From the NCBI RefSeq assembly GCF_002277955.1, contig NZ_CP018477.1, positions 558,001 through 622,000 on the forward strand: 64,000 nucleotides of DNA. Direction: 5' to 3'. The position numbers and the translations under genes were made by a program. This DNA is from Thermogutta terrifontis (lineage in GTDB: Bacteria > Planctomycetota > Planctomycetia > Pirellulales > Thermoguttaceae). How positions within the stretch are numbered: the first letter of the stretch is position 1; every line of letters begins with the position of its first letter. A model generated the notes under the pieces. That model was not told the origin of the DNA and made no database searches. It saw nothing but the letters and a program-made list of their open reading frames with translations. Below are positions 11,938 to 61,371 of this stretch, piece by piece.

Positions 11938-12448
11938 TTCCTTAGGCTTTGCGTGGGAATACAATCGCGACATGTAAGTCACCACCGACAGAGCCAACCC
12001 GCAAGACTTGCAATTCGTGCAGTGTCCCTGCCTACTCTGACGGGTTCAGGCATTGATAGGGGCAATTCGTGAATTGCCCCGACCAGGGATTGTCACGTCG
12101 TACGACCAAGTCTCACCGGGCACGACAAGCGTGCCCCTCCGACCTTGGGAAAATCCTTCGCGGGGAAACATTGCCTCGGAGGGACCTGCATGTCGGGTCC
12201 GCTTGTCAACCTTGGATGATCCACTCTAATTTACTCGCGCTCCGGTAGGGGCGATTCATGAATCACCCCTACAACACATGGCGATTTTGCCTTTTTCGCG
12301 ATTTTCACATAAAGTGGGGACGCGGCAAGTGCTTGTCACCGCCGGCAGAGTTGCTCCGCGGGCGGGATGCCGACCCTGTTCGGTCACGCGAGATGCTGCT
12401 TAATCGCCTGTTGTGGGCAAAGGGCCATGGGTGAACGCCGGAAAGAGA
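11938..12448. repeat. Intergenic palindrome cluster
   Basis: This 511-bp region has no convincing gene. It holds palindromes of the two dispersed families: an AATTCGTGAATT element (12059-12080), GGGCACGACAAGCGTGCCC (12118-12136), a degenerate GGACCTGCATGTCGGGTCC (about 12186-12204), and a TAGGGG..CCCCTA-flanked GATTCATGAATC element (12246-12271). Confidence 0.8.
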
Positions 12449-21337: not shown

Positions 21338-22611
21338 TGTGGCCGGCCTTTCCATTCCCCGTCCAAATGATCGTGCTGGCGGTGGTCGGCGCGTTTCTTG
21401 GATCGCTCGCCACCTGGGCGGCGGACCGGCTGGCCTGGCAGTCCCGCGCGGTTTCCCTGTGGAGCCGAGTAGGTCGGCTCGGACCACGCCACCTGGCCGC
21501 GTATGTGCCGATTTTGGGCTGGTTCTTTCAAAAGAGTCCTTCAGAGGGCCAGGGACGCTGGTCCTGGCTGCCACCGTTTTGTGTGGAGTGTCTCAGTGCG
21601 GCGGGGCTTCCCTGGCTCTACTGGTGGGAAGTTTGCGAAGCGGCGATTGTTCCAGCGGGCGTCCTACCGCCGCCTTTTCCCGTTCTGCTGGTGGTGTTCA
21701 TCAAGCACACCATTCTCTTCCTCTTCATGTTGGTGGCCTCACTTATCGACTGGGATGAGAAGGTGATCCCCGATGCGGTGACCATTCCGGGAACGCTCCT
21801 GGGGCTGATCTTGGCGGCGGTTGTGCCTGCCAGCCACCTGCCGGTGCCGCAGGAGCGGGCACGTCCACCCCTGATTTCGGCGAGCCGGGCGGTTCCAGGA
21901 GCGGTGCCGGCCACCTATCTGAAACTCACGTCGCCTTCCCCCTGGCCGGAATCTCTCAATGGCCAGCCCCACGGCCATGCCCTGAGTTTGGGGCTGTTTT
22001 GCTGGTGGTTGTGGTGCTTTGCGCTGATGCCCCGGCGGTGGTACCGCCATCGGCGATTCTGGAAGGCCGTGCAGTTGATGTGTGCGCGGCTCTATCGATC
22101 CCAGGTGACCGGGGGGCTTCTGGTCATGGGATTTATCGGCACCGCGGTGATCCTGTTCGTGTGGATTCTCGGTGGGGATCCGTGGCGTTCGTTGCTCTCA
22201 GCCCTGGTGGGGATGGCCGCCACGGCGGGACTGACATGGATTGTGCGGATCGTGGGGACGCTGGTCCTCGATCGGGAAGCGCTCGGCTTTGGCGATGTGA
22301 CTTTGATGGCGATGATTGGCTCCTATTTGGGCTGGCAACCGGGGCTGATTCTCTTCTTTCTCGCCCCCTTTGCGGGACTTGTGGTGGCGATCTACATCAT
22401 CGTGCGTCATCAGGAGGTGGAAATACCCTATGGGCCATTTCTTTGCCTGGGGGCCCTGGCGACAATTGTGTTCTGGCGAGACGTGTGGGGGTTTGCGTCG
22501 CTGATCTTTGAACTGGGCGGAATCCTGCCGCTACTTCTGGTCGCACTGATTGTGCTCCTCGCGTTTCTCCTGTTGGTGATCCGCCTCATCCGCGAGGGAT
22601 TGAGGATTTAG
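21337..22611 (+). CDS. Type IV prepilin peptidase-like membrane aspartyl protease
   Basis: Predicted inner-membrane peptidase that cleaves leader peptides of prepilins such as the DUF1559 protein at 27.6-28.6 kb. Its two catalytic Asp segments are SLIDWDEKVIPDAVTIPG and the GxGD-type LGFGDVTLMAMIGSYLGW. The N-terminal part keeps AYVPILGWFFQ, equivalent to the PILSW motif, but the tetra-cysteine zinc site of classical PilD is missing, so methyltransferase activity is doubtful. At 424 residues it is far longer than the usual 200-290, mainly from an insertion between the two Asp segments (about 165-260) with polar and membrane stretches. It overlaps the shikimate kinase stop by one base. Confidence 0.88.
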   Translation: MWPAFPFPVQMIVLAVVGAFLGSLATWAADRLAWQSRAVSLWSRVGRLGPRHLAAYVPILGWFFQKSPSEGQGRWSWLPPFCVECLSAAGLPWLYWWEVCEAAIVPAGVLPPPFPVLLVVFIKHTILFLFMLVASLIDWDEKVIPDAVTIPGTLLGLILAAVVPASHLPVPQERARPPLISASRAVPGAVPATYLKLTSPSPWPESLNGQPHGHALSLGLFCWWLWCFALMPRRWYRHRRFWKAVQLMCARLYRSQVTGGLLVMGFIGTAVILFVWILGGDPWRSLLSALVGMAATAGLTWIVRIVGTLVLDREALGFGDVTLMAMIGSYLGWQPGLILFFLAPFAGLVVAIYIIVRHQEVEIPYGPFLCLGALATIVFWRDVWGFASLIFELGGILPLLLVALIVLLAFLLLVIRLIREGLRI

Positions 22612-23815
22612 GAAGAGAAGTCAGGCTGGCCTGCGTGTGCAGCACCACCCCGCGGTTTTGTTCCCCTTCCGGATTCGTCTGTCCAGGACGTCCGCCACGG
22701 ACATCGCGCATTCCGGTCGGGGTAATTCATAAATGGCCCCTACCCGCAACAGGGCAATCACGCAACACGCAGCGCGTAGGGGCAATTCATGAATTGCCCC
22801 CACCGCTGAGCCCTTCTGGTGCCCATGGAATGAAATGGGTAATCAAGGGTTGGAAAATCGGACCTGACGAGCAGGTCCATCCAACTCCGAAAATGGAGGG
22901 GCACGCTTGTCGTGCCCGGTGAAAGCGAATAGATGATCGAACGTGCGCGAGCGGACCCGACGAGCGGGTCCCTCCGGAAGATGCACCTGACAACGCATGA
23001 ATGGACGCCCTGGAACGTGTCCTTCCATTGGATGGATTGGAGGGTGGGGTTCCGCTCCGACCGGTCATCGTCGTGCGATCCGGGCCGAGGACAGAGTGGT
23101 GAAGGCTAAAGCCTTAATCGAAAAGCGGCGATGAATCGCCGCACTCCATGGAGTGCGGGGCTTTAGCCCCGCTTTCGGCGCGGGACTTCAGTCCCCGGCG
23201 AAAGCGAACGGATGATCCAACATTGAACGGCGGACGTGACAAGCACGTCCCTCCAAACAGGGACCTGACAAGCAGGTCCCTCCGAAATACGATTCGGAGG
23301 GGGCACGCTTGTCGTGTCCGATGAGAGCGAATGGATGATCGAACGTGCGCGAGCGGACCCGACGAGCGGGTCCCTCCGGAAGATGGACCTGACAACGCAT
23401 GAATGGACGCCCTGGAACGTGTCGTTCCATTGGATGGATTGGAGGGTCGGGTTCCACCCCGATCGGTCATCGTTGCGCGAGCCGGGGCGAGGGCAAGGTG
23501 GTGAAGGCTAAAGCCTTCACCGAAAAGCGGCGATGAATCGCCGCACTCCATGGAGTGCGGTATGTGTGGAGAATGCCGTAATAGGCTGTGAAACTGTGCA
23601 AGCAAACGGTCATGCAAGATGACGGTCTGCGCACATCGAGCGCACAGGACCAACGTAACACTGTTCCCCCTAATTTTTCTTCAAAGACCCGCGTCCTATC
23701 TCTGAAACACACCTTTTTCAGCCTCGCTGCACCACGCAACCACTGATTCTTCTTCTGTGACTTTTCCTGGTTTATCCAGTTTCAATCTCCTAACTCATCT
23801 CCTCGCCAACAGAGG
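22612..23815. repeat. 1.2-kb palindromic repeat island
   Basis: No supported gene. Palindromes: AATTCATGAATT family at about 22717-22742 (degenerate) and 22777-22800; fixed-loop family at 22860-22878, 22899-22917, 22952-22970, 23232-23250, 23261-23281 and two more between 23300 and 23375; and a five-palindrome cassette at 23102-23195, partly repeated at 23505-23560. A block of about 240 bp is present twice in direct orientation, about 22918-23160 and 23322-23560, with scattered substitutions. The last 250 bp (23565-23815) are unique, AT-richer, and show nothing I can name. Short open frames over the repeats are artefacts of their composition. Confidence 0.85.
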
Positions 23816-26728
23816 TTACAACGCAAACGGCTCTCCCCGACCGGCTGTGAGGAGTTGGAGGGGCTCGCGTCGGAAGACAGCCAGTGCCGCTGGAACGGCA
23901 GCGACACCACAAACCAGGAATGTCGCGCCAATCCCGAGCATTAGTTTCTGCCATGGAATGATCAGTGGGGTCTCCATGCCACCGAAAAAGCTCGTGTATT
24001 GTGCCAGACCAATTCCGCACCATCCGGCGGCGATGCCGAAAAGAAGACTAATCATGGAGGCCACCGCAGCAATGAGGAATCCTTCGACAAGCACCTGCCG
24101 CGCAATGAGGGTTGAAGGAAAACCAATAGCTCTCATGACGCCGAACTCCCATTGTCTGGTTCGCACCGATGCATTGACGACAGTCATAAGACCTGGCAAC
24201 GTGATCAACAAGGTCACAAACGGCAATTGTGCCATACCCCAGATCATTGTGTCGGCTCGTCGGTTGATCTGTTGTCGGATCTCGTCCCGAAGCGTCACGC
24301 GGAGGGAGCGTCCAAACATTCGTGCGCCAAAAGCCCACGTTCCCTGAAAATTCACCGGCTGGCCGGGTCCAAGGTGTCGGTCTGCCACTTCCTGGAGTTT
24401 CCGACAGACCAGATCAAGGTTGGCATCGTCTTCCAGGTCGATCCACAGAAAGTTGATACCTACTAGCTTGAAATCCTTTCTAACGACGTTCTCATCAGCA
24501 AAGACCAGGGCCGCCGAACGTCCAAACCGTCGGCGAAGGCCAGAGAATTTTGTCATCCAATGCCAACCAGGCAGGGAAACGACACCAGCAATTCTGTATT
24601 CGACCGTTTGCTCTGGTTGATCGGGTAAGCACACAGAAAACGTGTCGCCAAGTCTCAATCCCGTGGCTTTCAAGAAATGATCAGGCACGATGCATCCCCT
24701 GTTCGATTTGAGCTGTTGAACAGCGGCGTCTCGAGATCCTTCAACAAAATCAACTGTGAACACAGGGTTTTTACCGCCGAATGCCAAATCGGGATTGACC
24801 CCCATTATGATGACATTGTCCTGCCGGACGACAGATGCCCCCCGGGAGGCGCCAGTCAGGTCCTCAGCCAATCTGGGCTGCTCCACCGCGACAGGGAGCA
24901 ATTTGGAAATGCCTGGAATGGTGCTGATTGATTCCAATTCACTCTCAGGCACATGACCAAGTTGAAATGCCGCGAGAAGATCCGGCGCCCAGGTCGTGGG
25001 TTTGAACGGCTCCAGCATGGAGTAGCCCCAAACCATCATCGCAGTAAACACGCCCAAACCTACGGACACCGCCATGCAGATCCCCACGCTGCGGGGCAAG
25101 TTTCGCGTCAATTCCATCTTGCAGAGCTGCCGGGGAATCCCAAGCACCATTCCCAAGGGGATTGAAAACGCCTTTTCCGCAATGACGACGAGGGCTGGAG
25201 TCCAACAAACAAAGCCCAGAACCATCAACGGTGCTCCCACAGTGGTCGCGATCGACACTCGAATAACTTCGTCGAGTGGTAGGATGTACACAACAAGTGG
25301 ATGAATCACAATCAGAAGACTCCCTAGAAAAGCCAGCCAACCCAGGGTCGAGGGTCTCGCGTCACGAAGCAACTGGGTGTGCCTTGCTTGCAGGGCCTCC
25401 AAGGGCGAAACCCGGCTGGCGCGAAGCATTGGCCACACGGCAGCCACCCCGGCCCCTAGGAAGGTCACCGCCGCTGACAGCCCCAGGCTATATGGACCGA
25501 TTGTCCCGCTCCACGTGAGGTTCAGGCCAAATCCGCGTCCTAACTGGAACACGATTCCGGCTGCCCCAAGACCACCCACCCAACCGGCGATGGCCAGCAG
25601 CAAGGCCTGCGTCAGGATCGTTCCCGCCACTTGAGCTTGCGTCAGGCCCACAACACGACAAAGGCCGATCTGGCGCGATCGCTCGTCCACACCCATGTTG
25701 AGGGTTGCGAAGATAAGAAACACCGCAGCCATGATCGCCAGCCCGCACGCTGTCCACGCCTGTGAACGAATAGAACGACTCGCTCGCGCCGTCGTGAATG
25801 CCTTTTCCAATTGCCGCTCACCCATGAGGAGGTAGCTCCCCCCATCAACAAACGGCGACACTCGTGACGTCCACTCCGCGAGGAATTGGTCCAGTCGAGT
25901 TGCCGAAGTCAATTTGAGGCCAAGGAGATTTATGGCGCCGGGCATACCAAGAAACTCCTGGGCCACATCCAGCGGCACATAAATGGCACCTGGTGGCATG
26001 CCAAGGAATGGCCCGATCGTGGATCCGACAGGCCGACCCGTAGGTCCTTCTTTCTCCAAAGTGGGAACACTTTCCGGCTGTTGGACGATCCCCACGATCT
26101 GAACGGAAAGGTCTTTGCCACCAGAATTGAGCCTGATCGTCTGGCCAACATCCCATCGGAAACTCTCGGCCAATTGTTCCGAAATCACAGCCTGAACGAC
26201 AGGGTGTTTCTTAACGTCCAACCATTGGCCGGCAACCACGGGATACGGCGCGACTGGCGAGTCAATTCCCACCACAGTCGGGAGCAGAAACAACGGCCGT
26301 GTCGGTTGAGAGTCGCCGGGGGATCGTTGATTCTCTCCGCCCCGAACAACGGGTTGCCTACGTCCTGACCTACGGAGGTCGTCTGGAGATCCCCCGCGCG
26401 GCCCCTCACCTTGACCGAAAGATCTTCCTATCGTGACAGCTTTACGCAACGAACAATGCACGTCAGCAATCCGCGGATCTTTTCGCAACGCTTCGATGAG
26501 CCGGTCGGAAATGACCGCCTTCTCGTCAAGCGAATCCGGTACAACGAACAGATCGTAATGTCCGAGTGCCTCCCTGGCCGTTCCTTCAAATTCCGAGACA
26601 AGCTTGTCGTAAGCCGAGACGACCCACACCACCAAACAGGAAGCCGCGAGCAGAGCCAGAACCGCTCCCAGGATCCTTTGCGGGTAACAGAGGGCATCTG
26701 CAATCGCAAGTCTCACACTAACAGGCAT
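23816..26728 (-). CDS. FtsX/MacB-type ABC transporter permease (large)
   Basis: Permease of a MacB/LolCDE-type ABC system that exports or extracts substrates at the inner membrane without being a classical pore. The 970-residue protein has an N-terminal membrane helix (AVLALLAASCLVVWVVSAYD) and a long extracytoplasmic domain (about 45-315). A first FtsX core of three helices follows (about 330-450, CGLAIMAAVFLIFATLNMGVDERSRQIGLCRVVG). Two further helices, a second large soluble domain and a C-terminal FtsX core with RTRQWEFGVMRAIGFPSTL complete a duplicated layout. ATG at 26728 shares a base with the ATPase stop (TGATG). Third gene of the DUF1559-ATPase-permease operon. Confidence 0.9.
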   Translation of the reverse strand: MPVSVRLAIADALCYPQRILGAVLALLAASCLVVWVVSAYDKLVSEFEGTAREALGHYDLFVVPDSLDEKAVISDRLIEALRKDPRIADVHCSLRKAVTIGRSFGQGEGPRGGSPDDLRRSGRRQPVVRGGENQRSPGDSQPTRPLFLLPTVVGIDSPVAPYPVVAGQWLDVKKHPVVQAVISEQLAESFRWDVGQTIRLNSGGKDLSVQIVGIVQQPESVPTLEKEGPTGRPVGSTIGPFLGMPPGAIYVPLDVAQEFLGMPGAINLLGLKLTSATRLDQFLAEWTSRVSPFVDGGSYLLMGERQLEKAFTTARASRSIRSQAWTACGLAIMAAVFLIFATLNMGVDERSRQIGLCRVVGLTQAQVAGTILTQALLLAIAGWVGGLGAAGIVFQLGRGFGLNLTWSGTIGPYSLGLSAAVTFLGAGVAAVWPMLRASRVSPLEALQARHTQLLRDARPSTLGWLAFLGSLLIVIHPLVVYILPLDEVIRVSIATTVGAPLMVLGFVCWTPALVVIAEKAFSIPLGMVLGIPRQLCKMELTRNLPRSVGICMAVSVGLGVFTAMMVWGYSMLEPFKPTTWAPDLLAAFQLGHVPESELESISTIPGISKLLPVAVEQPRLAEDLTGASRGASVVRQDNVIIMGVNPDLAFGGKNPVFTVDFVEGSRDAAVQQLKSNRGCIVPDHFLKATGLRLGDTFSVCLPDQPEQTVEYRIAGVVSLPGWHWMTKFSGLRRRFGRSAALVFADENVVRKDFKLVGINFLWIDLEDDANLDLVCRKLQEVADRHLGPGQPVNFQGTWAFGARMFGRSLRVTLRDEIRQQINRRADTMIWGMAQLPFVTLLITLPGLMTVVNASVRTRQWEFGVMRAIGFPSTLIARQVLVEGFLIAAVASMISLLFGIAAGWCGIGLAQYTSFFGGMETPLIIPWQKLMLGIGATFLVCGVAAVPAALAVFRREPLQLLTAGRGEPFAL

Positions 26729-27519
26729 CACCTCACCCCTTCCGGTTCCTCGAGTTGAAGACTCTCCTCGTACCGCGCCGCCAGTGTGCGGACCGAATCA
26801 CAATTCCCGGTGGGAAACTCTGTAACGATTTGACCGTCCTTCAGAATCAGGATTCGATCCGTCCATATTGCCACGGATGGCTCATGCGTAACGATGAGGA
26901 TTGTGCGCGATTGTTGTTCGGCAAGCCCTCGGAGTAACCGGCACAACTCCTGACCAGCGATCGAGTCCAGGTTTCCTGTAGGCTCGTCTGCCAGGATGAG
27001 AGCCGAATCAAGCGCGAGGGTCCGTGCAATGGCGGTTCGCTGTTGCTCTCCGCCACTGAGTGCGTCGGGGCGATGCCGACGTCGTTCCCAAAGCCCCAGG
27101 TCGCGAATGATTCGGCGAGCATTGTCTATTTTGTCCGCGTGAGTTCGCTCGGCCAGCAGAGGCAGGAGAACATTCTCTTCCAGCGTCAACGTGGGAATCA
27201 AGTTGAAATGCTGGAAGATCACACCGATTCTTTGCCGCCGGAATATCGTCATCTGATAATCCGAGAGTTTGCTCGTCTCGCAACCATCCACGAGGATCCG
27301 CCCTGAATCTGGCGCCGTGAGACCGGCGATCACATGGAGAAGGGTACTTTTTCCTGAACCGCTTGGCCCCATAATGGCAACGAATTCTCCCCGAGCAAGG
27401 GAAAACGACACCCCTTTGAGGACCTGAATCACATTCCCGGCATACCTGAAACTCTTGGACACATTTTCGACAACCAGGGGGCACTCAATGTCCCCGTGAC
27501 CACGACTGCGCTCGTTCAT
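26728..27519 (-). CDS. ABC transporter ATP-binding protein (MacB/LolD type)
   Basis: ATPase subunit for the FtsX permease downstream. The 263-residue protein has Walker [10 protein letters not shown], a Q-loop in [19 protein letters not shown] (the LolD/MacB form), signature [15 protein letters not shown], Walker [15 protein letters not shown] and the switch His in [11 protein letters not shown]. The ATG at 27519 gives [21 protein letters not shown], the natural beginning of the domain. The frame extends further upstream into the preceding gene but without family similarity. It is translationally coupled to the permease through TGATG and follows the DUF1559 gene by 31 bases. Confidence 0.94.
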
Positions 27520-27550
27520 TCGCTTTGTCCCCGCAAAGAAGGCCAGAAAC

Positions 27551-28594
27551 TCATGGGACGCTCTCGACTTCTCCACCGGCCCGAGTCCAGAGAGCATACC
27601 AGGCGGTTGATGCAATCGTCTGACTGACGAATCGGACACTTCCATCGCATAAGCAGGCATTGACCCCACCAGGATGCCAGCTTCGCGCCGCGGTCACCTT
27701 GGCTGATCCGCTCACCAGATCGGGTATCCGAGAATTCGGGAGAAGGCGACCATTCATGACAGGGCCAGTGGGAGAACATCCCCGCAACCAGTACATGAGG
27801 CGCGTCCCATCCCAGCCACTGAGCTGGGAGTAGAGTACGGAGAGGTCGCCTGATTGCTCGATCGCATCGATTAACGTCGTGGGTGCTCTGGCTCGAAAGA
27901 TCTGATGATTTGGCCGATCTGTGGACGGCAGGGATGTTCCCGGTCCACGAAGCGATTCGGTCAAGGCCAGCGTGTTGCTCGTTCCGTCGAGAACATCGTC
28001 AAGTCGTATCTCAGCACCGACCCAGCAAAGCCCATCCGTCGCACCAAATCCGGGATTGAACATCCCGTCGCGACCGCTCCCCTGATTCATGGCATAGTTT
28101 GCCCCTGCCACAGGGATGACACGACCACTGGGTAATGTCAAATCGTGAAGGGGTTTCTCGCCATCACTGGGACACAGGAAGATGGAGACAGGAGTTCGGG
28201 CAGCCTCCCAAAGGGCTTCCGGAAGATCATCTCGTCCCACGTGCCCCAATGTGATGCGAAAGTCGATCAGGTTATGGAGATTCTGCTGCTCGACGAATGG
28301 AAGGAGCTTTGCCAGCGGGGAATAATCATTGGGGTATGTGGGACCGGCAAAACCGGCGTTTGGTAGCATACGATGGATGTCATGATAATTGTGCATCGCC
28401 AACCCTAACTGACGAAGATTGTTGCAGCACTGGGCACGGCGTGCTGCCTCCCTTGCAGCCTGAACCGCCGGGAGAAGGAGCGCGATCAGAAGCCCGATAA
28501 TTGCGATGACGACGAGCAATTCAACCAGCGTAAACCCAACTCGACTTAGGAGTGGTTTGACCGACGATTCCTTCGACTTTCTTCTCTCATTCAT
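27551..28594 (-). CDS. DUF1559 protein with prepilin-type N-terminus
   Basis: A member of the large planctomycete pseudopilin-like family. Residues 18-45 form the type IV prepilin signal: [20 protein letters not shown], cleaved after the Gly, with +1 Phe and +5 Glu, followed by [17 protein letters not shown]. The globular part ends in the H/X-DG tail [17 protein letters not shown]. The start at 28594 (MNERRKSKE) gives a short basic leader of usual length; no strong Shine-Dalgarno is visible. It is the first gene before an ABC ATPase/FtsX permease pair, so the pseudopilin may be part of, or exported with, that system. The likely processing enzyme is encoded at 21.3-22.6 kb. Confidence 0.92.
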
Positions 28595-29365
28595 ATGGCG
28601 ACTTTTCCCAATCACACTCCGCCAATTCTTCCGAACGAGCCGTTGTCCGTGCTCGCGAGCAAATCCCGTACCGAGCTTCAGACCTTGCTTGAGTTGGCCG
28701 CAAGACGTGCCTTTTTTCCGTAACAATGGAAGGAGCACTTGGAAGACCAGCCAACGTCTTTGTCGATCTGCGCAACATGATGTGTTGCGCAAGGCGACAT
28801 GCTCGGTTTGAGGTTCAAGTGGATTCGGCAGACAGTCCTATCAGAAACACTGTCGTGAACAACAGCGATAGACTCGCGAAATAGTGTTTCCTTGCCTGCG
28901 TCTTCATCGCCGGTCGGGGCGTCTCCTTCGTGGATGATCGTTGGTGGTGGTTTCGAGACTTGAGAGAGCCAAATGGTCTTGGATTTGCATCACCTGCTCC
29001 ACGACCTGAATCGCGTTCGTTGTAACGTCAAGAAGCTTGCGAAACCCAAGTGTGCCCCTGTGCGTTCTTACTTTTGAAGGACCGTTCAGAAGACTCATGT
29101 GGTCATCTGGAATGTCAAGAACGCCCGTGTTTTCTTGGCTTTTTTGCGGTTGAGTGTCATCCATCAACGGCAAAGCCAATTTGAGTTAACTGATGTCGTC
29201 CCTGGGTTTGCGGCAACGCTGAGGATAGGGGCAAAGCAGGCCCCCTTGACATGACGGAGGTTCTGGAAATCAAGAGAGGTACTGGTATCCTCAGAGATTT
29301 CTAACGGTAAACACTCACGGGGTTGTGATTAGATTCACCATTTGTCTGAAAAGGAGATTGGTCAA
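28595..29365. other. Intergenic region upstream of the DUF1559 operon
   Basis: A 771-bp gap. A minus-strand frame at 28904-29179 (91 residues, helical segment FRKLLDVTTNAIQVVEQVM, basic C-terminus) is open but has no ribosome binding site and no family I recognise, so I do not call it. The rest should hold the promoter of the DUF1559 operon and that of the DUF4405-like gene. No palindromic repeats are seen. Confidence 0.4.
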
Positions 29366-29896
29366 ATGCGTCAGACTTTGGGAATGCAAACATGGTCCGG
29401 GGCACTTACCATTGGTTCGTTCATCGTCATCTCCTTGACGGGCATCCTCATGTTTTTCCACATCAATATTGGATTGGTCAAGCTTGCTCACGAATGGCTG
29501 AGTTGGGTCTTCGTCGTCGCGGCCATTTGCCATGCGATCGTTCACTGGAAGCTCCTTCTGGGGTATTTTCGTAACCGGGCAGCCCTGGCCTTGATGGTGC
29601 CCATCCTCGTCCTCGGCGGCCTATCGCTGATCCCCGCTGGCGGGAATGGGCCGACACATCCCCTGGTCCAGGTCATGGCACGGCTGGAGCGTGCCCCCCT
29701 TGAATCCGTCGCAAAACTCGGCGAAAGCGATCCTTCCGCTGTGATTCAGACCTTGAAGGCATCGGGAATCGCAGTGGAGACCGCTGGCCAGACAATCGCG
29801 GAAATCGCCAACAAGAACGGCAAACGGCCTATGGATGTTTTGCTCATTCTCTTTTCGGACAGAAGCTTAACACAGCACAAATCCAGGAGGGGTTAA
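29366..29896 (+). CDS. DUF4405-like cytochrome b-type membrane protein
   Basis: A 176-residue inner-membrane protein. Three apolar helices (about 10-35, 42-65, 75-95) include GALTIGSFIVISLTGILMFFH and the His-rich AHEWLSWVFVVAAICHAIVHW, whose spaced His residues could ligate haem as in DUF4405 proteins. The C-terminal soluble part ends in a repeat-like IAEIANKNGKRPMDVLLIL. AAGGAG 9 bases upstream supports the start at 29366. The function is unknown; similar proteins are proposed to pass electrons across the membrane. It converges on the gene remnant on the other strand, overlapping it by 4 bases. Confidence 0.8.
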   Translation: MRQTLGMQTWSGALTIGSFIVISLTGILMFFHINIGLVKLAHEWLSWVFVVAAICHAIVHWKLLLGYFRNRAALALMVPILVLGGLSLIPAGGNGPTHPLVQVMARLERAPLESVAKLGESDPSAVIQTLKASGIAVETAGQTIAEIANKNGKRPMDVLLILFSDRSLTQHKSRRG

Positions 29897-30103
29897 TTCT
29901 GCATTTCCCAGACCACCTCCAACAGCGCCGGCTCATTCCCATCGACGGCTAACGTCCGCACAACCCAGGTGTTTCCTCTTCCTATCCGAACCAGGTATCG
30001 ACCGCGGAATCCCCGTACATGGTAAACCCCATTCTGATCCGTTTGGCCATCAGCGTGGGTCTTCCATTCCTCATGAATAAGCCGTTCAAGTTCTCGATAG
30101 GCA
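29893..30103 (-). pseudogene. C-terminal fragment of a GH10 xylanase-like gene, truncated by repeats
   Basis: About 70 codons on the minus strand end in TAA at 29893 and read YRELERLIHEEWKT, QTDQNGVYHVRGFRGRY and VVWEMQN. EWKT...TD..G.y..RGFrGrY is the C-terminal tail common in planctomycete endo-1,4-beta-xylanases of family GH10. Upstream of the tail the frame runs directly into palindromic repeats at about 30107, and no catalytic barrel exists nearby. The open frame continues through the repeats (to 30438), but that part is translated repeat. This looks like a gene whose 5' portion was deleted or displaced when repeats accumulated. Confidence 0.65.
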
Positions 30104-30600
30104 GAGGGGCACGCTTGTCGTGCCCGGTGAAATGGGAATGGATTATCGAACGTAGAACAACGGACCTGACGAGCAGGTCCCTCCGAGGCAGGTCCCGCCG
30201 AGAAAGATTTTGCGAAGGTCGGAGGGGCACGCTTGTCGTGCCCGGTGAAGCAAAATCGATGGTCCAACGTTGGAAAAAGCGGACCCGACAAGCGGGTCCC
30301 TCCGAAGCAGGTCCCGGCAAGAAAGGTTATGCGAAGGTCGGAGGGGCACGCTTGTCGTGCCCGGTGAAACAAAATCGATGGTCCAACGTTGGAAAAAGCG
30401 GACCCGACAAGCGGGTCCCTCCGACGATGTAGGGGCAATTCATGAATTGCCCCTACCGTTGAATCCTTCCCGTGCCCACAGAATGAAATGGGTTATCAAG
30501 GGTTGGAAAAGCGGACCTGACAAGCAGGTCCCTCCGAACACGGACCTGGTAGGCAGGCCCCTCCGGATACGGACGTGGCAAGCCGGTCGCTCCTGGAGAT
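30104..30600. repeat. Tandem palindromic repeat island
   Basis: Successive copies of a composite unit: GGGCACGCTTGTCGTGCCC, then GGTGAA.., a spacer containing CGATGGTCCAACGTTGG, then GGACCCGACAAGCGGGTCC. Two nearly identical copies start at about 30218 and 30339, with a more diverged one at 30107. An AATTCATGAATT palindrome with TAGGGG/CCCCTA ends lies at 30430-30455. Three further fixed-loop elements follow at about 30512-30595, two of them degenerate. No gene. Confidence 0.85.
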
Positions 30601-30686
30601 GACACGGTCCCCCAATTGCCGAACTGCTTTTGCCGGATTAGGCTTGGGAAAAGCGCGCCGTTTACAGCCCGGCCGTGCTTCGGGCA

Positions 30687-30741
30687 AATCCGAAAACCAA
30701 TGGCGTCCGAGAATTCACGCCAATTTTGAGGTTTTCGGATT
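30687..30741. other. Long imperfect hairpin upstream of serC
   Basis: AATCCGAAAACC (30687-30698) is exactly complementary to GGTTTTCGGATT (30730-30741). Inside it AATGGCGT pairs with ACGCCAATT apart from one bulge, leaving a loop of about 10 bases. It lies 134 bases before the serC start. With no T-tract it is not a plain terminator. It may be a leader structure or another mobile palindrome. Confidence 0.5.
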
Positions 30742-48266: not shown

Positions 48267-49011
48267 GTAGCCAGACGATCATTTAAGAGGGGATGACTGG
48301 GAGGGCAGATCACGCGCCGGCGCGGAACGGGCCGTATGGACCATAGCCGAACCGCATTCCGGTAGGGGCAATTCATGAATTGCCCCTACCAAAGCTTTTG
48401 ACGCTCACATATCCAGGCGTCGGAGGGACCTGTTCGTTAGGTCCGGTTTTTCCGGAGGGACGTGCTTGTCACGTCCACTTTTCAACCTTTGATAATCCAT
48501 CCCTGTTTGACCGGGCACGATAAGCGTGCCCCTCCGAGTCGTGTTTCGGAGGGACGTGCTTGTCACGTCCGCTTTTCGACGTTGGACAGTCCACTGCCTT
48601 TCGCCGGGGACTGAAGTCCCGCGCCGAAAGCGGGGCTAAAGCCCCGCACTCCATGGAGTGCGGCGATTCATCGCCGCTTTTTGGTGAAGGCTTTAGCCTT
48701 CACCACCTTGCCGTCGGTCCAAATGGAACAACGATGACCGATGGGGCCGATTCCCGAATCGCCGTGACGCCCCATGGACCGTGGCCGGACCGCATTCCGG
48801 TAGGGGCAATTCATGAATTGCCCCTACCAACAGATTGCGCCCGTGGTATCTCACACATCGCTGCAAAAGTAGGGAAGGGTCAAGCGCACGCCGCTTCGAG
48901 AATCCAGGTGACACTTACCCAAGAATCTCGAATAGATTTATCTTTCAGGCCAGCTTTTCAGCGACAGCAAAGTTATTCCGTTCCATTGCGATCAGGACGC
49001 AATTTCACTGA
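48267..49011. repeat. Palindromic repeat island downstream of the MFS gene
   Basis: No gene. A perfect 30-bp palindrome (GGTAGGGG arms around AATTCATGAATT) occurs at 48361-48390 and again at 48799-48828. Fixed-loop elements lie at about 48425-48445, 48455-48475 (GGACGTGCTTGTCACGTCC), 48511-48530 and 48551-48571. The five-palindrome cassette occupies 48607-48701, in the opposite orientation to the copy at 23.1 kb. The last ~180 bases before the Rrf2 stop are unique. Confidence 0.85.
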
Positions 49012-60323: not shown

Positions 60324-61371
60324 CGCGTCTCACCACACTCCTGTCGCTATTCCAAAGCCAATCCCTCAGTGACTCCAACCCATCACTCCCAGCAAGCCGC
60401 CCCAGCCCCCCGTGTTTCAGGAAAGCCCCGACACCCCCTCGCGGTTCAGCCGGGGAGGATCCTCCAGGTTTAAACGTCGAGCCCCCAGGCGAAGAATCTC
60501 GAGTACTTGGGGAGGCGGCGGGGGGTTATGTGATACCTAATGGTGACTCGTTTCAGATACAAACGCTCTCTAATGAATTATTTATTGGCGACTCCACGGG
60601 CAACACGTCCTGGAACGAGCCCACAAAAAATTTCCGTCGGAAATGTCCCCCTAACTGCCGGCCGAGTTCCGCTATTGGTCAGGCGGAAATGTGGCGTATC
60701 CGGGAGGGTACTGGCCCGTTCCCCTAGACCTTGATGGCCGCTACTGACAGCAACCCGGAACGCCGCCCGACGGTACGCTGTCGTAAAATCGCCCCGGTCG
60801 CCCCGCTTTATGCAACGATTTCGGAACCCAAAGCCCTATAAGACTCTCAAGATAATGTCTTTGTGACAAATGAAAACCCCTCGATATGGGGGAAAGCAAA
60901 AATAAGACCCGGTGGCACGCTCGGGATGCCTGGAAGGCGGGGCCATTGATGAATTGTCCCACCCCTCGCTGTCTCACCAGCGACCCAACCGAGCAGTTGG
61001 AGCCTCACCCGTGAAACGGATCATCCAAACGTCGGAATGGGGGCCTGACGAGCAGGTTCCTCCGAAACAGCGGACGGGCACGCTCGCCGAGTCCCATATG
61101 ACGTCGGTGCCGCGCTGCGTTGACGGTGCTTGGGTTCGCCCCTAAATTGGACGTTTCAGGTTTTTTTGGTCGAAGTGTGATTCCCCTGCTGATCCGCGGG
61201 CGGGTAGCACAGAGGATATTCAGCGAGAATAATCACCGGACGTCGCGATCCGTGCAAAACCAGCCCGGCCCACCGAATGTGTTGGAGGATACGCGCACCG
61301 AATATTGAGAAAATCGGGCAAATCGTGAGGACACAGGACCTGCATCTTTCTAAAGACTTCAGGGAGTGACA
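60324..61371. other. 1.05-kb region without a supported gene
   Basis: Between the NRDE gene and transketolase I see only weak open frames without ribosome binding sites, and eroded copies of the palindrome families (about 60937-60962, 61040-61060 and 61077-61095). The frames look like decayed DNA. An AT-rich stretch near 60840-60910 with CCCCTCGATATGGGG could include a promoter, but I cannot assign it. Confidence 0.45.

Follow-up and report, generated by a model that had tools for sequence, protein, structure and literature searches.

A GGAG-tagged hairpin family with a constant loop and changing paired stems in Thermogutta terrifontis: probable ends of a REPIN/BIME-like unit

Hundreds of short hairpins lie between the genes of T. 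terrifontis, each with a GGAG tag at its foot, a CTTGT loop and a stem that varies from copy to copy while mostly remaining paired. We consider it probable that these are the terminal hairpins of a non-autonomous, REPIN/BIME-like inverted pair of ~81 nt, moved now or formerly by a RAYT-type transposase.

Results

A fixed tag and loop around a variable paired stem

The window analyzed here, a 64-kb stretch of T. terrifontis DNA, contains the heptamer GACAAGC 24 times, as compared with 8.8 expected occurrences and 19 in the richest shuffle. An earlier note on this DNA had described the heptamer as the constant loop of palindromes with compensated stems, and all its words were recovered: GGACCCGACAAGCGGGTCC at 30281 and 30400, GGACCTGACAAGCAGGTCC at 23261 and 30513, GGACGTGACAAGCACGTCC at 23232 (with further inverted copies at 48458 and 48552), and GGGCACGACAAGCGTGCCC at 12118 (inverted at 22899, 30107, 30225, and 30344). 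Read on the opposite strand, the hairpin has the form GGAG + GG-NNNN-G[CTTGT]C-NNNN-CC, in which tag and loop are fixed and the stem is variable and mostly paired. The heptamer is indeed constant, but it is not all loop: its outer G and C pair with each other, so that the stem is 7 bp long (GGNNNNG/CNNNNCC) and the loop 5 nt. On this strand, GGAG stands at the start of 17 of the 19 window copies found with one tag change allowed, and 15 copies are both GGAG-tagged and fully paired, for a mean of 0.0 in 20 Markov resamplings.

Some of these hairpins lie outside the paired units described below. Copies with the CTTGT loop map to 12118..12140 (stem GGGCAC, minus strand), 23232..23254 (GGACGT, minus), 23261..23283 and 30513..30535 (both GGACCT, minus), and 48548..48570 (GGACGT, plus). 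The GGAG hairpin at 12178..12200 (plus) has the stem GGACCT/GGGTCC with 1 mismatch and the loop CATGT, the GGACCT hairpin at 22860..22882 (minus) has a tag decayed to GGAT and the loop CTCGT, and that at 61041..61063 (minus) is a decayed GGAG hairpin with 2 mismatches and the loop CTCGT.

The window also hosts other palindromes. A second family, GTAGGGGCAATTCATGAATTGCCCCTAC, has 11 window copies (at 2900, 12058, 12247, 16858, 16915, 22718, 22778, 30431, 48364, 48802, and 51010) with GTAG/CTAC tags at both ends, and a 107-nt block common to 22776-22882 and 30429-30535 includes one such palindrome per copy. A third, AAAGCGGCGATGAATCGCCGCACTCC.GGAGTGCGGGGCT..., at 23122-23175, 23524-23577, and 48627-48680, is of the type that flanks the intact RAYT gene of T. 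terrifontis. Positions 22898-23158 and 23300-23560 form a 261-nt tandem block (402 nt apart, 93% identity) with hairpins of two families inside.

Copy number and stem pairing across the genome

The T. terrifontis genome (complete, single contig, 4,810,751 bp) contains 522 exact copies of GGAGGGNNNNGCTTGTCNNNNCC and 835 copies at up to one mismatch, with 0 matches of the reversed control in either search. In a motif-free raw count over 1.264 Mb, CTTGT (with its complement ACAAG) was the second commonest loop among all 6-bp perfect hairpins, and GAGG, that is, the GGAG tag, nearly always preceded the counted stem of these CTTGT hairpins.

Pairing was scored over 2.064 Mb, made up of the window and 100 stretches, at sites anchored on the tag and the loop, with one loop change allowed and the 3' arm left free. 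Among the 540 sites, 359 were fully paired, 107 had one mismatch, 34 two, and 40 more. After prior removal of the 26 of 540 sites with at least four mismatches, full pairing in 359 of 514 contrasted with a mean of 96.8 and a maximum of 125 in 500 arm shuffles, which bears out, far above chance, the proposed change of paired stems around a fixed loop. When the sites with no more than one mismatch (466) are classed by their inner four pairs, four stems dominate, GCAC in 142, ACCT in 106, ACCC in 70, and ACGT in 68; the covariation in this genome is therefore strong, yet based on few stems.

Two unlike ends of one unit

The hairpins form head-to-head pairs whose GGAG tags face outward; 99 of these pairs measure 80-84 nt and 8 measure 85-89 nt, and a first sample had 39 of 53 pairs at exactly 81 nt. 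With 1 mismatch allowed, 105 of the 107 T. terrifontis units combine one GCAC-like and one ACNN-like end, the latter being ACCC, ACCT, or ACGT, and 62 of 63 units in the related species MAG-77 follow the same rule. The GCAC and ACNN stem types are the ends of one unit, not independent elements. The alternative named in the earlier note, that the copies are fragments of one larger element, is therefore half right, since the stem types mostly correspond to the two ends of an ~81-nt element. Neighboring units lie back to back with junctions mostly of 5-15 nt, resulting in arrays with a period of ~92 nt.

Within the window, and with coordinates on the plus strand, an 81-nt unit with outward tags spans 22895..22975 (GGGCAC, plus, at 22895-22917; GGACCC, minus, at 22953-22975). 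The 82-nt unit at 23296..23377, which lies inside the tandem duplicate of 22898-23158, joins a GGGCAC/GTGTCC hairpin (plus, with an extra G after the tag and 1 mismatch) to a GGACCC hairpin (minus, 23355-23377), and that at 30103..30184, also of 82 nt, joins a GGGCAC hairpin tagged AGAG to a GGACCT hairpin (minus). Two 83-nt units at 30221..30303 and 30340..30422, each with a GGGCAC and a GGACCC (minus) hairpin, are tandem copies at a spacing of 119 nt, and an 82-nt unit at 48454..48535 has a GGACGT (plus) and a GGGCAC hairpin (minus, loop CTTAT).

Predicted DNA folding of 65 natural units gave the end hairpins mean probabilities of 0.55 and 0.57 (38 of the 65 units have both above 0.5), with 7.9 end-to-end pairs on average. 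With a copy of the left end put in place of the right one, both hairpin probabilities were 0.0 (0/65 units keep them) and end-to-end pairs rose to 22.9. This contrast, which is a prediction with 37 C DNA energies and no proof of selection, suggests separate folding of each end as a reason for unlike ends.

Extragenic placement

The hairpins had been said to lie only between genes, and their extragenic position is upheld: just 5 of 500 in the 2.064 Mb fall in open reading frames (ORFs) of at least 400 aa, of which four lie 13-24 nt inside the called start and one is a chance match. ORFs of at least 200 aa overlap 77 of 500 hairpins versus 15602 of 20200 random points; at 100 aa the figures are 287 of 500 and 17411 of 20200, the ORFs concerned being nearly all short. 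The intergenic context defined by 100-aa ORFs (107 tandem, 51 divergent, 40 convergent) resembles that of random points (1358, 746, and 487, respectively), with a convergent share of 40 of 198 intergenic hairpins versus 487 of 2591 random intergenic points. At larger ORF limits the hairpins lie somewhat more often at divergent sites than random points do (122/331 versus 1049/3369 at 150 aa), and convergent sites at the 150-aa or 200-aa limits are rarer than random or like random.

A loose terminator pattern matched 15 times in 22700-30700, counting matches of any kind, versus 9.1 in shuffles. Although 4 of these matches belong to the GGAG-CTTGT family, an ordinary terminator as the main role was rejected given the lack of a convergent-gene skew. 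A known structured RNA was likewise rejected, as an Rfam search of 22600-23700 returned two matches far under the gathering score and no family at threshold. In the compared stretches L011 and L012, Rfam recognized a single riboswitch, nhaA-I, at L011:18491-18541.

Resident copies decay in place

MAG-77, a draft Thermogutta sp. genome, is syntenic with T. terrifontis at ~75-95% identity in most long blocks. Orthologous hairpins were kept when their flanks were identical at 40 or more of 50 positions and the next-best place scored lower by 4 or more, which left 32, four of them listed at 40-43/50; an earlier rule had removed 35 of 58 candidates for gaps. Out of their 224 base pairs, 204 are unchanged, 17 changed in one arm, 1 changed in both arms and is unpaired, and 2 are paired changes. 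The 17 one-arm changes lack Watson-Crick pairing in one or both species, with 6 of them leaving G-T, and both paired changes belong to one hairpin (L066:1397 in comparison with L008). Substitutions per site amount to 0.051 in the stem, 0.056 in the loop, 0.067 in the flank, and 0.023 in the tag, rates that are biased low because the MAG-77 copies were picked by tag, loop, and near-pairing.

With uncompensated stem changes and a stem rate near that of the flank, the resident copies are not far from free decay. Since stems decay at shared sites, pairing reflects the origin of the copies, not a job done by each of them. The covariation had been taken to mean selection for, or copying by, a hairpin. 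It does not show the first for resident copies, in which changes between species are mostly uncompensated; copying from few paired source stems is compatible with the data.

At L066:1397 and L008 the flanks are identical at 49 of 50 positions and two adjacent pairs differ as pairs, ACGT versus ACCC, both of them standing stems of the family; this swap looks like conversion rather than stepwise compensation. Comparison of L024 with L102 revealed a whole unit gained or lost, and at three compared sites just one of the species has hairpins. The comparison of T. terrifontis with MAG-77 gave no clean empty site; the sites differ by whole units, and such differences could stem from recombination.

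Two stretches stood out for their similarity between the species. One is a 3.6-kb block at 99% identity (L011 11782-15426 versus L081), attributable to recent transfer, strong conservation, or a binning error. The other, L012 8412-8491, has three tandem hairpins with unusual ACAC/ACAT stems that are unchanged in DNA that is 98-99% identical.

A patchy distribution across phyla

In 297 genomes of the class, the exact pattern revealed the family in T. terrifontis only, two others having a single unpaired chance match. A one-mismatch search of 61 genomes of the taxonomic family yielded at most 3 matches in each of the others, the level of the reversed control, and 0 and 1 in two genus mates. Among the matches listed for GTDB contigs, the GGAGGGAC..GTCC form appears in MAG-77, in Kiritimatiellae, Lentisphaerae, Verrucomicrobia, Spartobacteria, and Victivallales MAGs, and also in one labelled Paludibacteraceae and some labelled uncultured bacterium; whole-genome counts in 13 of the matched genomes ranged from 1 to 275. 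When the loop CTTGN was allowed in the class of a Lentisphaerae MAG, 5 of 148 genomes had 14-80 copies and 3 had single matches.

Outside Thermogutta, 32 loci contain 57 hairpins with such a loop; 55 of them bear the GGAG tag, and 14 different paired stems occur. Pairing and tag are partly built in here, since tag and loop served to pick the loci and a hairpin needed 5 or more paired bases to be retained. Inverted pairs with two unlike stems, exactly 74 nt long, were found six times (L109, L116, L137, with two, L138, and L176). The GGACCT stem is common to T. terrifontis, a Spartobacteria MAG, and a Verrucomicrobia MAG. The family likely arrived in Thermogutta horizontally.

Of the two end types of the CTTGT repeats in genome G470, that with CGAG/CGAC stems (e.g., G470:C9:14955-14977) has a constant G-A/A-G double mismatch, so a perfect stem is not needed everywhere. 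Genome G306 has stems TCGC/ACGC with the loop CTTGT, and its RAYT at locus L302 is flanked by GGAG hairpins TCGCG/ACGCG with the loop CTCCGT.

RAYT transposases beside the hairpins and in T. terrifontis

The absence of a REP-associated transposase, as stated in the earlier note, holds for the 64-kb window, in which no RAYT was seen and none was placed by genome-wide searches. It does not hold generally, given an intact RAYT in the genome and same-loop RAYTs in other phyla. The intact gene (G000:C1:896448-897035, minus strand) lies 274 kb from the window, scores 83 bits against NF047646 (cut-off 80), and has TnpArep 4ER8 as nearest solved structure (E 2e-7); its flanks carry GGAGT-GCGGCGAT and GGAGT-GCGGGGCT hairpins, not the CTTGT family. 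A second RAYT-like match of 37 bits, below the cut-off (L325 2153-2897, ~3676.2-3676.9 kb), is apparently broken in frame, with a GTAG-tagged palindrome inside. NF047646 at E 0.001 detected only these two in the whole genome.

In three other genomes, RAYT genes adjoin hairpins with this tag and loop. The L299 gene (Verrucomicrobia MAG Tb.RUG.75) has same-tag hairpins on both flanks, with loops CTTGT and CTCGT and stems ACGC and CCGA, the L324 gene (genome G470, of the class of a Lentisphaerae MAG) has CTTGT hairpins on both sides, and the L244 gene (Lentisphaerae GWF2_50_93) likewise lies between two, a CTTGT hairpin and a CTTGC hairpin at distances of 98 and 193 nt. When the L299 and L324 proteins were used as queries on 43% of the T. 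terrifontis genome, the intact RAYT was the best or near-best match, weakly. At the thresholds used, the complete T. terrifontis genome yielded no member of the cognate RAYT group. None was found in MAG-77 either, a draft in which contigs of at least 3 kb were covered and repeat-flanked genes may be missing.

A tree of 43 of 48 RAYT proteins (three omitted without clear repeats and two as duplicates), with repeat labels assigned in this analysis, placed L299, L324, and L244 in a group of 7 rows with support 93/85. The other members are three RAYTs flanked by CTCCGT/CTCTGC-type loops and L300 (2-nt loops); L331, whose loop is CTCCGC, lies immediately outside this group, and the CTTGT rows by themselves form no clade. 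The T. terrifontis RAYT falls within the GGAGT-flanked part, away from the CTTGT-flanked ones, and its sampled relatives L285, L286, L287, and L228 have GGAGT-type repeats too. Its candidacy as a clear cognate was rejected on this grouping and on its GGAGT-GCGG flanking hairpins.

By the rule used, 29 of the 48 RAYT loci have recurring tagged hairpins and 19 do not, L285 being counted among the latter because scoring was stricter than in the flank inspection. The hairpins stand on both sides in 27 of the 29, and in 21 two or more stems combine with a single tag and with loops that are identical or almost identical. Among the PF01797 loci L178-L207, two showed GGAG hairpins, ~0.8-1.2 kb from the gene, and there was one 4-bp chance match besides.

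Discussion

In the RAYT-type explanation that we favor, each unit end would be recognized as folded single-stranded DNA. Recognition would depend on two fixed marks, GGAG at the foot of the hairpin and G[CTTGT]C as its loop, and the stem would mainly need pairing during copying; because the ends carry different stems, each could form its own hairpin without annealing to the opposite end. A folded single strand read via tag and loop is the simplest reading of the constant tag and loop, the free but mostly paired stem, and the unlike ends. Its loop and stem part agrees with published tests of Marinomonas and Stenotrophomonas TnpAREP, for which loop positions and a mismatch-free stem matter and some Marinomonas stem positions do not (PMC8266576). 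The same work reports that changes in GTAG are largely tolerated by both proteins, and this makes the tag a weaker candidate for a general mark. The mover would be a tyrosine (HUH) transposase of the RAYT group that adjoins such hairpins in Lentisphaerae and Verrucomicrobia. Since T. terrifontis yielded no RAYT of that group, we infer its loss there, which would leave the family either orphan or served in trans by the intact RAYT, whose own flanking repeats also carry GGAG.

We find it improbable that the resident hairpins work as an RNA or DNA structure, be it a terminator, an mRNA end, or a gyrase/IHF site, with selection on each copy keeping its pairing. The full pairing of most copies, the four loose terminator matches, and the G-T pairs left by 6 of 17 one-arm changes speak for such a job, but the orthologs oppose 17 one-arm losses of Watson-Crick pairing to one hairpin with paired changes, stems diverge nearly as fast as flanks (0.051 versus 0.067), and gene context shows no skew to convergent genes. 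A mutational process, template switching or conversion, that swaps or corrects the whole hairpin in place without transposition is somewhat less remote, if still unlikely. It would account for the paired difference between L066:1397 and L008 amid near-identical flanks, and for an ACCT/ACCC difference between L024 and L102 within otherwise nearly identical DNA, but leaves unexplained why the ends pair up at 81 nt, why there are so many copies, why RAYTs adjoin such hairpins in other genomes, and why tag and loop stay fixed across phyla while stems differ; swapping in place and RAYT-type movement may act jointly.

Horizontal transfer would in turn be unnecessary if GGAG and CTTGT were favored by many RAYTs and had converged, a possibility that we regard as real but the weaker one. 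The core in common is short, the same RAYT group also includes the loops CTCCGT and CTCTGC, and CTTG is also found in Pseudomonas REPs (PMC3116915). Convergence is harder to reconcile with the absence of the family beyond chance from 296 other genomes of the class (exact pattern), with counts no higher than the reversed control (at most 3, one mismatch) in 60 other genomes of the taxonomic family, two genus mates included, and with the sharing of even the GGACCT stem with Spartobacteria and Verrucomicrobia MAGs.

The resemblance to REP/BIME elements noted earlier is supported by the extragenic, high-copy, inverted mosaics of two hairpin types. REPs in the strict sense are defined by a 5' tetranucleotide GTAG/GTGG at the hairpin foot (PMC3686654); the Thermogutta family is a high-copy, almost only extragenic palindrome (522 exact copies), but its tag is GGAG instead of GT(A/G)G. 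As in E. coli REP/BIME (y, z1, z2), several tagged hairpin types make mosaics at many loci, and GCAC and ACNN hairpins alternate in inverted order as the REP types of a BIME do. The E. coli elements are recognized and cleaved as single-stranded DNA by the RAYT TnpAREP, and have GTAG, bulged stems, and loops without a sequence role (PMC8266576), whereas the Thermogutta hairpins have GGAG, mostly perfect stems, and a fixed loop, and their cognate RAYT group was not found in the same genome. A REPtron has its repeat beside a RAYT of the same genome; in T. terrifontis this is not so, but the same tag-and-loop hairpin does flank RAYTs in other genomes (L299, L324, and L244).

The REPINs of Pseudomonas fluorescens SBW25 are likewise extragenic, RAYT-linked inverted doublets with a constrained spacer (PMC3116915), and the Thermogutta pairs, RAYT-linked in other genomes, share the near-constant spacing of two inverted repeats (99 at 80-84 nt, 8 at 85-89 nt). 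SBW25 REPINs are described as symmetrical and making one long hairpin (PMC3116915); the Thermogutta units have unlike stems, their ends are not predicted to anneal into one (7.9 versus 22.9 end-to-end pairs), and a symmetrized unit would collapse into one duplex in silico. Group 3 TnpAREP REPtrons of Stenotrophomonas and Marinomonas share the need for a mismatch-free stem, a critical loop, and some free stem positions, but differ in their change-tolerant GTAG tags, the 4-nt Marinomonas loop, and their phyla (PMC8266576).

Alternative complementary stems and head-to-head dimers are already known for the GTAG/CGTC palindromic repeats (24 + 4 families), which have members in Planctomycetes (PMC3733652); GGAG is not among the tags described there, the word being absent from the main text of that article. 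In keeping with the earlier statement that no named family is known to have this loop, literature searches, with preprints and most subscription papers outside their scope, gave no GGAG-tagged REP family and none combining the GGAG tag with the CTTGT loop. As far as these searches reach, the GGAG tag class, the fixed-loop pair with unlike stems recurring beside RAYTs of several phyla, and the apparent orphan state in Thermogutta are new.

The GGAG-CTTGT family bears on how RAYTs select their repeats and on why the stems of REPs vary yet stay paired. We advance, as a tentative generalization, that tag and loop are the address that the transposase reads in many RAYT repeats of the PVC phyla, that the stems of the two ends are unlike to let each end fold on its own, and that the Thermogutta family crossed phyla, multiplied to hundreds of copies, and persists without its transposase. 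With tag and loop constant over phyla, 14 stems in 32 loci, and the same stems with two loops in G306, the loop as address is directly testable. If this rule is true, stem diversity would be selected for difference between ends, not for any sequence. The ~500-800 copies in a complete genome in which no cognate transposase was found offer a natural test of survival by function, trans-mobilization, or inertia.
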